From positions 868,001 to 932,000 of the forward strand of contig NZ_JAGFBF010000001.1 of the NCBI RefSeq assembly GCF_017583045.1: a stretch of 64,000 nt of DNA, in the 5' to 3' direction. The stretch is from Leucobacter tardus (GTDB lineage: Bacteria > Actinomycetota > Actinomycetes > Actinomycetales > Microbacteriaceae). Both the position numbers and the translations under genes were made by a program. The notes under the pieces are model-generated. The model saw only the letters and a list, made by a program, of their open reading frames with translations, was not told the origin of the DNA and made no database searches. Positions 5,500 to 64,000 of this stretch are shown here, piece after piece (within the stretch, counting starts at the first letter, position 1; every line of letters begins with the position of its first letter).

Positions 5500-7870
<2,371 letters not shown>

Positions 7871-61993: not shown

Positions 61994-62644
61994 ATGACTC
62001 GCATCACCGTTCTCGGCGGCACCGGCTACGCCGGCCGCAACATCGTTCGCGTCGCCGCGGAACGCGGCCACAGCGTGACGGCGTACAGCCGACGCGCACC
62101 CGAATCGCCAATCGTCGGCGTCGAGTACCGGACCGGGGACGTGCAGGACGCTTCGGTGATCCGGGCGGCCGTCGCCGACACCGACGTGGTCGTGTCGACG
62201 CTCTCACCGCGGGGCGAGCTCGAGGGGACCGGCAAGCTGCGCGCCATCGAACAGCAGATCGCCGCAGAGGCCGAGCGCGCCGGTGTGCGTTTCGGCGTCG
62301 TCGGCGGCGCCGGATCGTTGGTCGTCGCCGAGGGCGGGCCGCGCGTCGCCGACACCCCCGACTTCCCCGACGCCATCAAGCCGGAGGCAGCCGAGCTGGC
62401 AGCCGTGCTCGAGGACCTGCTGGCCTCATCGACCGAACTCGACTGGTTCTACGTGAGCCCGGCGGGCGGGTTCGGCGAGTGGGCGCCAGGCGAGGCGACC
62501 GGCACCTACCGCATCGGCGGTGACGTGCTGCTCGTCGACGAGTCCGGTGAATCCCAGATTTCAGGCGCCGATTTCGCAGACGCGTTCGTCACCGAGATCG
62601 AGCGGCCCGAGCATCGCCGCCAGCGGTTCACCGTCGCCTACTGA
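61994..62644 (+). CDS. NAD(P)-binding oxidoreductase (NmrA/SDR-like)
   Basis: A 216-residue atypical short-chain dehydrogenase. The dinucleotide loop is TVLGGTGYAGRNIV at about 5-18, followed by the basic-binding strand VTAYSRRAP (Arg pair favours NADPH), DTDVVVSTLSPRG, FGVVGGAGSLVV and DWFYVSPAGGFG. The classic YxxxK pair is absent, as in YwnB/NmrA-like members. ATG at 61994 has CAGGAG six bases before it. Divergent from the HxlR gene and probably its target; it may reduce quinones or similar electrophiles. Confidence 0.82.
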   Translation: MTRITVLGGTGYAGRNIVRVAAERGHSVTAYSRRAPESPIVGVEYRTGDVQDASVIRAAVADTDVVVSTLSPRGELEGTGKLRAIEQQIAAEAERAGVRFGVVGGAGSLVVAEGGPRVADTPDFPDAIKPEAAELAAVLEDLLASSTELDWFYVSPAGGFGEWAPGEATGTYRIGGDVLLVDESGESQISGADFADAFVTEIERPEHRRQRFTVAY

Positions 62645-62687: not shown

Positions 62688-63140
62688 TCACCCTCCCGCT
62701 GCCGCGCCGAGGAGACACGCGTAGCGTTGACGGTCGGGCCAGCGCGGATCGGGATCCCGCGGTACCACCGCGAACCCGAGTCGGCGATAGAACTCCACGG
62801 CATCGTCGTCGGTCTCCGCGTACACGGCGCCGTCTCGGGCCGCCGAACGAGTCGCCTGCACGAGCGTGGAGCCGTGACCGCGCCCTTGCTGGTCTGGTGC
62901 CACCGCCATGTACTCGATCACTGCCGGGTCGCGATCGACGTCGAACGCGACGAATCCGACGACGCGATCCTCGTCGGTGATCCCGAGTACCGAGAGGTGC
63001 CTGAGCTCATCGAGCATGAGTCGTCGCAGGCGCTCGCCGTCGGCGTCTGAAGCGAGCCGGATGAGGGCTTGGACGTCTGCGCGCTGCATGGCGCCTTTGC
63101 TGAGCACGCGGACGGTACGTCGATCTTCCACGCCTTTCAC
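62688..63140 (-). CDS. GNAT-family acetyltransferase
   Basis: A 150-residue N-acetyltransferase. Motif A is EYMAVAPDQQGRGHGSTLV with the acetyl-CoA loop QQGRGHG. Motif B follows as DDDAVEFYRRLGFAVV. The substrate is unknown. The start is probably GTG at 63140; GTG at 63131 and ATG at 63089 are in-frame options. It is convergent with the oxidoreductase gene and is followed, across a terminator upstream, by a truncated gene on the same strand. Confidence 0.82.
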   Translation of the reverse strand: MKGVEDRRTVRVLSKGAMQRADVQALIRLASDADGERLRRLMLDELRHLSVLGITDEDRVVGFVAFDVDRDPAVIEYMAVAPDQQGRGHGSTLVQATRSAARDGAVYAETDDDAVEFYRRLGFAVVPRDPDPRWPDRQRYACLLGAAAGG

Positions 63141-63172
63141 CGTATCTTGCGTCGGTGAGTCTCGCGAGGGCA

Positions 63173-63223
63173 GCCTGAACCCCGCACCGAGGAAGCAGAC
63201 GGATCTCGGAGCGGGGTTCAGGC
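63173..63223 (-). terminator. Terminator after the truncated gene
   Basis: GCCTGAACCCCGC (63173-63185) pairs perfectly with GCGGGGTTCAGGC (63211-63223), with a second short stem (CCGAG/CTCGG) inside the loop. It lies just past the stop of the truncated minus-strand gene. Confidence 0.7.
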
Positions 63224-63237
63224 GGGGGCGGGGGCGC

Positions 63238-63360
63238 TCAGATCGCGTCGCCCGTGACCGGCCCCTCGGTGTTCGGCTTCCAGCCGAGCGCGGGTGCGAC
63301 GTGCTGCGCGAACGACTCGAGCACGTGCAGGTTGTACTCCGGTCCCAACTGATTGGGCAT
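63238..63360 (-). pseudogene. 3' fragment of an interrupted gene, probably LLM-class flavin oxidoreductase
   Basis: Forty codons plus TGA, read from ATG 63360 on the minus strand, give PNQLGPEYNLHVLESF, then AQHVAPALGWKPNTEG and a stop. NLHVLESFA-HVAPALGW is a typical C-terminus of bacterial LLM (luciferase-like) flavin oxidoreductases, from memory. It has its own terminator and no promoter or ribosome site. The gene's remaining ~300 codons are missing: directly upstream lies the start of a serine recombinase gene. The fragment marks the point where an element entered the gene. Confidence 0.55.
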
Positions 63361-63368
63361 TGACTTTG

Positions 63369-64000
63369 ATGTACATTGAATTCGTGACGGAGCGCAGCGG
63401 GAACCGAGCAGTAATCTACGCGAGAATCAGCCGCGACAAGAAGGATGAGGGCGAAACGCTCGACGGTCAGATCGAGCTCTGCGAGAAGCTCGCGGTGAAG
63501 AATGGACTCACCGTTGTTGCGACATACCGTGAATCTGATGGCACAGGCGCATCCGAGCGGTCTCAGTCAAAGAGTCGCGTTGAGTACGACAAGATGCTCG
63601 CCGCGGCACGAACGGGCGAGTTTGACTACATCCTCGCCTACGCGGACGACCGTCTCACAAGACGACCCGCTGAACTGGAAGAGCTGATCCAGCTCGTCGA
63701 GACCACTGGAATCAAGATCCGCACTCATCGATTCGAGCACTACGATCTCTCCAGCAATCAGGGCATCATGGCGGCTCGCATACTCGGAGCAGTCGCGGCA
63801 GGGGAGGCGCGCACAATCTCTGAGCGCCAGAAAGCCACCTTCGAACGTCATGCGTATGCGGGCAAGCCCAAGCGGCAGCGACAGCGACCCTTTGGCTGGG
63901 AAGAAGATGGAATCCACATCCGCGAGAGCGAAGCAAGCCTCATTCGCGGCGCCGTCGAGAAGGTTAAGGCTGGCGCCTCGATTGCGAGCATTCAGCACGA
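63369..64000 (+). CDS. Large serine recombinase/integrase, N-terminal part (3' end outside window)
   Basis: Site-specific recombinase of phages and integrative elements. The frame is open from ATG 63369 (or GTG 63384) to the window end. The catalytic domain begins RAVIYARISRDKKDEGETLD, with the nucleophile Ser21 (from ATG) in YARIS. It has YILAYADDRLTRRPAELEEL, containing the conserved Asp/Arg region, and the helix ILGAVAAGEARTISERQKATFERH. A recombinase domain opens at RPFGWEEDG, so it belongs to the large (long) class. G+C is visibly lower than in neighbours: about 50% in 63361-63420 by count. Confidence 0.9.
   Translation, partial: MYIEFVTERSGNRAVIYARISRDKKDEGETLDGQIELCEKLAVKNGLTVVATYRESDGTGASERSQSKSRVEYDKMLAAARTGEFDYILAYADDRLTRRPAELEELIQLVETTGIKIRTHRFEHYDLSSNQGIMAARILGAVAAGEARTISERQKATFERHAYAGKPKRQRQRPFGWEEDGIHIRESEASLIRGAVEKVKAGASIASIQH

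Follow-up and report, generated by a model that had tools for sequence, protein, structure and literature searches.

SCC and ECC elements are serine-recombinase islands inserted in the 3′ region of a conserved protein gene, rlmH; they are flanked by att repeats, have inverted repeats in the island site, carry variable cargo and are accompanied by remnants (PMC6222049), and their target gene is kept whole, with a displaced gene end on the far side. In the ssrA islands of Dehalococcoides, a CcrB-like serine integrase lies beside the displaced end and a second, small serine recombinase is present; many displaced ends stand in tandem, and some of the resulting units have no integration module (PMC3146451). 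Streptococcal ICEs at rumA and other genes have serine integrases with dedicated protein-gene targets, and the 3′ part of rumA is exchanged on insertion (PMC4701971). Among large serine recombinases (LSRs) with predicted sites, distantly related enzymes converge on one conserved site, in one gene (PMC10083194). The locus described here has a counterpart to each of these features. As to what becomes of the target, all 29 serine-integrase ICE insertions surveyed in PMC4701971 disrupt protein genes, and serine-recombinase IMEs are likewise described as gene-disrupting in a review (PMC5704250).

The window analysed is a stretch of 64,000 nt (contig C1, C1:868001-932000) from the 2.95-Mb genome of Leucobacter tardus, assembled in seven contigs. 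We propose, at a probability of about 0.9, that its right edge holds the left end of a 22.1-kb island integrated by a large serine integrase, and that this insertion swapped the 3′ end of an LLM flavin oxidoreductase gene while keeping the gene open.

Junctions and extent of the island

The earlier note on this window had reported a 40-codon LLM C-terminal ORF on the minus strand (63238-63360) and, just beyond it on the plus strand, a large serine recombinase. Both are present. The C-terminus is 73% identical over 40 residues (78% over 79 bases) to that of an intact LLM gene on the same contig, and 90% identical to the C-terminus of a relative, G011. As a fragment of the host gene, the ORF holds for 63238-63351, from codon Q312 to the stop, severed by the island from its 5′ part; it does not hold for the first three codons, M-P-N (63352-63360). 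These come from the island's attachment arm, which makes the ATG fortuitous, and homology with the C-terminus of the intact gene begins at the core. Directly past the displaced stop, a repeat search found an inverted repeat (63173..63223; 19 nt, 95%, 13-nt spacer), possibly the former transcription end signal of the LLM gene; it is absent from a terminator scan of 63100-63600.

The integrase gene (63369..64000, plus strand, continuing past the window to C1:932979) is assigned from its ORF, its Pfam domains and its relatives, which also adjoin orphaned LLM ends. From the ATG at 63369 it encodes 536 aa, with an in-frame GTG at 63384 as an alternative start. Its N-terminal Resolvase catalytic domain (PF00239) scores 86.4 bits against a cut-off of 23.3 (E 2.7e-24) and its Recombinase domain (PF07508) 27.8 bits against 21.1 (E 3.1e-6), while a zinc ribbon (PF13408) stays under its cut-off (18.6 against 25.3 bits). 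Residue S21, presumably the catalytic serine, is invariant in all three aligned sequences.

The 5′ part of the LLM gene had been expected at the other end of the element, outside the window, and was found there, 22.1 kb away. At this far end of the island lies an open LLM gene of 349 codons (C1:953334-954383, minus strand), whose product matches Pfam Bac_luciferase (E 1.6e-28). The host gene was thus cut, as had been supposed, in that its original 3′ end was displaced, but it was not left truncated. With the crossover in codon 312 of 349, the last ~38 codons come from the island; since the end that the island encodes is homologous to the original one, insertion exchanges the 3′ end of the gene and leaves it open. 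Past the island-borne stop is a 14-pair hairpin (C1:953211-953242; L005:3212-3243), a pattern match that is not in itself evidence of function; a transcription end signal of the island's own may arrive with the gene end.

The putative crossover dinucleotide is at 63350..63351 (TG on the plus strand, CA on the gene strand), inside the interval 63345-63385 predicted for the att core, and its far-end counterpart is at C1:953446-953447. It is common to both junctions, which read, on the gene strand, CCGAAC-CA-ATTGGGTAGTGC at the intact gene and GCCCAAT-CA-GTTGGGACCGGAG at the orphan. The island-side attachment arm in the window (63352..63376, plus strand), one 25-bp half of attP, is an inverted-repeat match to the arm at the far junction: when the two inner halves are joined as a deduced attP, the arms form an inverted repeat centred on the CA, matching at 18 of 25 positions, and none of 5000 shuffles was as good. 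To judge by sequence, the deduced attP would thus have the form typical of large serine integrases, an inverted repeat around a dinucleotide. The corresponding arms in the islands of two other genomes considered below, G325 and G735, match at 13 of 25 positions each (11 of 5000 shuffles as good). The direct repeat of 63345-63385 that had been anticipated was not found as a long exact match at the core; among exact words common to the two junction stretches compared, the longest has 8 bases and lies outside the core. A match of 22 of 23 bases between the ends falls in the homologous coding part. The 5-bp shift of a zinc-domain motif between attP and attB described in PMC3783163 was not reproduced at this site; a GTACA block shifts by 7, by hand count.

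From core to core the island spans 22,096 bp (C1:931350-953446). Its G+C content is 0.576, against 0.70 in both flanks, in agreement with the lower G+C noticed earlier on the recombinase side, and its DNA is probably mobile. The host side is marked by a GNAT-like gene (62688..63140, minus strand) and, as a second synteny marker, an NAD-binding-type gene (61994..62644, plus strand), both named from sequence reading. Their G011 orthologues are 87% and 86% identical, respectively, and the G011 LLM protein is 93% identical to that of the window genome. The distance from the start of the GNAT-like gene to the LLM stop is 1,256 bp in G011 versus 22,194 bp in the window genome, and that from the start of the NAD-binding-type gene 2,297 bp versus 22,693 bp, so that the comparison proposed in the note, with a relative lacking the insertion, places the flanking genes 1.3 and 2.3 kb from the LLM stop rather than 22 kb. 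G011 is not a bare empty site, because a small unit of its own follows its LLM gene.

The island's cargo includes an Lsr2-type protein, a GmrSD_N protein, a Replic_Relax protein (28.1 bits in Pfam, cut-off 25.3; 23.8 against 200 for the NCBIfam MobC-type model), a second serine recombinase of 267 aa, and a 976-aa frame with Prim-Pol and P4-family primase domains. The Prim-Pol match (PF09250, 52.8 bits, cut-off 22.8) marks the last as a replication protein of the AICE type, and the island resembles an IME in having its own site-specific integrase. Two overlapping ORFs match HerA (1.8e-225) and SIR2 (2.3e-101) in PADLOC, and the NCBIfam anti-phage HerA and SIR2 models stay far under their cut-offs; these genes are a putative adjacent pair of the anti-phage defence type. 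No capsid, terminase or tail genes were found among the island ORFs compared (10 with PHROGs, 17 with Pfam). Two further island ORFs (C1:944932-946035 and C1:951547-952617) have, one, a sub-threshold SprT-like match and, the other, a weak prepilin/pilin-like one.

This arrangement would result if the integrase had recombined attP, on a circular form of the island, with attB near the end of the LLM gene, with strand exchange at the CA in codon 312. The attP side would have supplied the divergent but homologous last ~38 codons and the stop, and the original 3′ end would have been pushed 22 kb away, to lie beside the integrase. Excision, transfer between cells and a working enzyme from the regenerated gene could also be expected. 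A quite different account would make the neighbourhood accidental, with the 40-codon ORF either a small gene or part of a copied paralogue, and the integrase derived from something unrelated. The genome does have further LLM-class paralogues, but these are distant matches (at most 34% identity), and the account was rejected as very improbable given the matching far junction, the recurrence of an integrase beside an orphaned LLM end in four genomes and the joined flanks in G011. Entry by serine integrase is consistent with what can be read from the DNA itself: both junctions, the open regenerated gene, the displaced end, the flanks joined in the relative, the cargo matches and the like placement of three other integrases. 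The island might have entered in this way and since lost excision and movement, leaving a fixed remnant. Of the island ORFs scanned, none matched a relaxase, T4SS or capsid family, nor was a recombination directionality factor identified, as such a remnant would lead one to expect; the integrase frame, however, is intact and both attachment halves are present, and we consider the loss of movement rather doubtful.

Related integrases and a second site in the gene

A search of 54 genomes of the same genus with the integrase gave six matches at 1e-20, the five others being 32-38% identical, and a search of 396 genomes of the order gave two at 1e-70, the window's own and that of G325. A pattern search of a named genome collection matched 10 stretches, one of which was confirmed (L044, a Microbacterium MAG), and G735, from another genus of the family, was found through a search with the LLM C-terminus. 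The integrases of L044, G325 and G735 each begin beside an orphaned LLM C-terminus. Together with the window's integrase they make up a single branch (support 100/100) in a tree of 14 integrases, with identities of 41-47%, and we regard all four as dedicated to the LLM target. In G325 and G735 the far-side gene ends are divergent and open, as in the window genome (QLGIAYSLHILESF... and QLGVSFCTRLLESF...); in L044, where only the orphan side is covered, a search for the 5′ part of the LLM gene found nothing. G720 was left aside; its two distant matches to the family lie on opposite strands.

Relatives of the integrase are of Microbacterium, Streptomyces-phage and mycobacterial origin, which, with the G+C content and the Lsr2 gene, points to a high-G+C actinobacterial host. 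At E 1e-30, two plasmid and 34 Streptomyces phage records match it in the plasmid and phage collections, with 33-37% identity over 61-63% of the query among the matches listed (15 of the 34 for phage); in the viral collection, no stretch matched the integrase patterns.

The cargo of the related islands differs. That of G325 includes an N-6 methylase/HSDR_N protein, an FtsK-like protein and a small serine recombinase, and that of G735 an FtsK-like protein and transposase-like ORFs (the recombinase and transposase names are from sequence reading). Defence or restriction genes are thus found in two of the three islands known end to end, as SIR2/HerA in the window's and N-6 methylase/HSDR_N in that of G325. 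The small serine recombinases of L044 and G325 match each other at 47%; that of the window island matches neither at 1e-4, and so a common second recombinase is not claimed.

Another serine-integrase family has inserted at about codon 81 of the LLM gene in five genomes (G042:C1:1003408-1011351; G017:C1:2737191-2743432; G002:C49:5609-12677; G325:C29:46143-54437; and G735, L148:1-1156). These five integrases form one branch (support 100/100), unrelated to the family of the window integrase, and four of the five, from three genera and two families, share 90-94% identity; that of G735 is incomplete at the edge of the stretch compared. Insertion here splits the gene, the N-terminal piece in G325 reading into a stop, and in G325 and G735 both LLM sites are occupied. 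Two integrase families at two sites in one gene raise the question of why the LLM gene should be a safe target.

Tandem gene ends and small units

The DNA downstream of the gene was searched with a profile of native LLM 3′ ends in 53 loci, several of which end early at contig ends: those of G325 and of 52 of the 54 same-genus genomes (in G001 the gene is cut by a contig end, and G057 gave no match in the C-terminus search). The search found 19 further copies of the LLM end, all in the direction of the gene, in 12 loci: G325 and 11 of the 52 same-genus loci, namely the window's and those of G004, G005, G008, G011, G024, G043, G044, G045, G047 and G059. Two nhmmer rows had been dropped before this count (G019, opposite strand, E 7.5e-4; G042, 72 bases, E 0.0055), and the best E in a reversed-sequence control was 0.42. 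For 16 of the 19 copies the start lies 1-21 bases ahead of the core, and three decayed ones begin past it; none starts earlier, with the profile extended 150 bases upstream. Other gene ends in these loci served as a control: 3 of 274 have a downstream copy (one being itself an LLM fragment), versus 7 of the 31 LLM ends that pass the ORF filter. Outside the genus, two of nine family loci (G495 and G560) have such copies, and G735 has the island already described. In G771, from another genus (L150, G771:C10:8000-22000), an orphaned LLM 3′ end lies at 5691-5777, with no LLM gene or integrase relative within the 14 kb; a large island may extend beyond this stretch.

The window genome and G325 aside, the copies delimit 17 units in ten genomes. 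Fifteen of these are small (0.45-1.0 kb), each lying between two att-like ends; with no integrase among the 14 products scanned, they resemble CIMEs. The two larger ones are in G043 (6.1 kb) and G059 (3.6 kb, with a methylase-like gene, so named from sequence reading). In 11 of the 15 small units a single complete ORF takes up 75% or more of the insert, whereas random windows from the same loci (300 draws) gave 2.85 of 15 on average and 7 at most; for two of the units counted as misses (G008 unit 2 and G044 unit 3), the low score reflects an ORF that starts inside the trimmed-off repeat. Genes within the units are of mixed orientation. The 14 unit products scanned with Pfam comprise five GNATs, one each of S51 peptidase, RDD, SnoaL-like and ASCH, and five without a match above cut-off, with no integrase among them. 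The left arms of the small units were inspected by eye, and no motif is claimed for them.

Two of the unit genes were followed across the same-genus genomes. A unit membrane protein is found in 8 of the 54 genomes, within about 3.1 kb downstream of the LLM gene in seven of the eight, and is flanked by copies in G044 and G059 only; the GNAT of a G047 unit is found in 29 of the 54, and in 15 of these it shares a contig with the LLM gene at a distance of no more than 7 kb (hand count), mostly without a flanking copy.

The core of the LLM gene has been used repeatedly, and the units may have originated as mobile cassettes, by decay of larger islands or by duplications starting at the core. Decay, with integrases lost and att-like ends retained in the manner of CIMEs, has a probability that we place a little short of even. 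It is a route reported for other islands (PMC5704250, PMC3146451), and the 6.1-kb unit of G043 retains a serine-recombinase-like ORF (named from sequence reading). In G004 an island-type gene end, 80% identical to the window's, is followed by a single GNAT gene and then an orphan, which in sequence terms is a link between islands and small units. Outside G004, however, the gene-side arm is native-like, not island-like, and decay does not readily account for so many inserts being filled by one ORF, well above the random expectation. Neighbouring genes might instead have been duplicated or shuffled locally, beginning at the core and with no incoming mobile unit. Several copies match the gene end of their own genome best, and the membrane protein and the GNAT are often close to the LLM gene with no copies beside them, as local duplication would predict; the concentration of copy starts just before the core, and the rarity of downstream copies at other gene ends, do not suit it, and we consider it possible but unlikely.

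It is also conceivable, if distinctly improbable, that serine integrases drive an integron-like assembly site at the LLM 3′ end. The core would then be the point of entry and the ~110-bp ends reusable sites, with single small genes as cassettes that have no integrase of their own and are served in trans by LLM-directed integrases; the GNATs, the SnoaL-like, ASCH and RDD proteins, the S51 peptidase and the membrane proteins would be the candidates. The frequent occurrence of the membrane protein and the GNAT near LLM genes without flanking copies weakens any reading of the small units as freely mobile cassettes. Whatever their origin, the tandem units are a set in which cassette-like gene capture is directly testable.

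Comparison with known systems

The window island is not a member of the SCC/ECC group, because no ccrA or ccrB was found above the model cut-offs (CcrB 32.5 bits against 900, CcrA 24.5 against 700) and because its target is the LLM gene, not rlmH. In ECC the att repeats are about 50 bp (PMC6222049); at the LLM gene the island supplies a divergent end of ~38 codons. The ssrA islands differ in targeting the tmRNA gene, with a 20-bp repeat, rather than a protein gene, and in the content of their 15 units without an integration module, which carry 38 rdhA genes and others (PMC3146451); those at the LLM gene are mostly of 0.45-1 kb, with one gene. The rumA ICEs alter the sequence, length and frame of the C-terminus (PMC4701971), unlike the homologous end supplied here, with which length and frame are kept. 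Compared with AICEs, the window island has the Prim-Pol but no FtsK-type translocase (the HerA protein alone scores, at 22.6 bits, below the cut-off of 24); the islands of G325 and G735 do have an FtsK-like protein.

The LSR survey gives as examples of targets a magnesium chelatase/protease-like gene and a prolyl isomerase, and its main text does not contain the words luciferase-like or monooxygenase; the LLM site may be among the 6,207 LSRs of its supplement (PMC10083194). With these tables excepted, we recognized no account of insertion at the LLM 3′ site in the literature searched, and, because surveys report gene disruption, a serine-integrase family that restores a protein gene with a homologous end would be a new form of an already known type.

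The deduced attB/attP pair is a candidate site for genome engineering, and the LLM site is a hotspot for the entry of defence-type genes into a high-G+C lineage. Integrons hold single small genes with repeats between them and one entry site, and GNATs are among their products. The small units have the same elements, in runs of single small genes with ~110-bp repeats, one entry site and GNATs among the products; unlike those of integrons, the repeats are decaying LLM gene ends, the recombinases nearby are serine integrases and gene orientation is mixed. The island itself works like SCC: a matching replacement end would make a conserved protein gene reusable as a target without loss, much as at rlmH.
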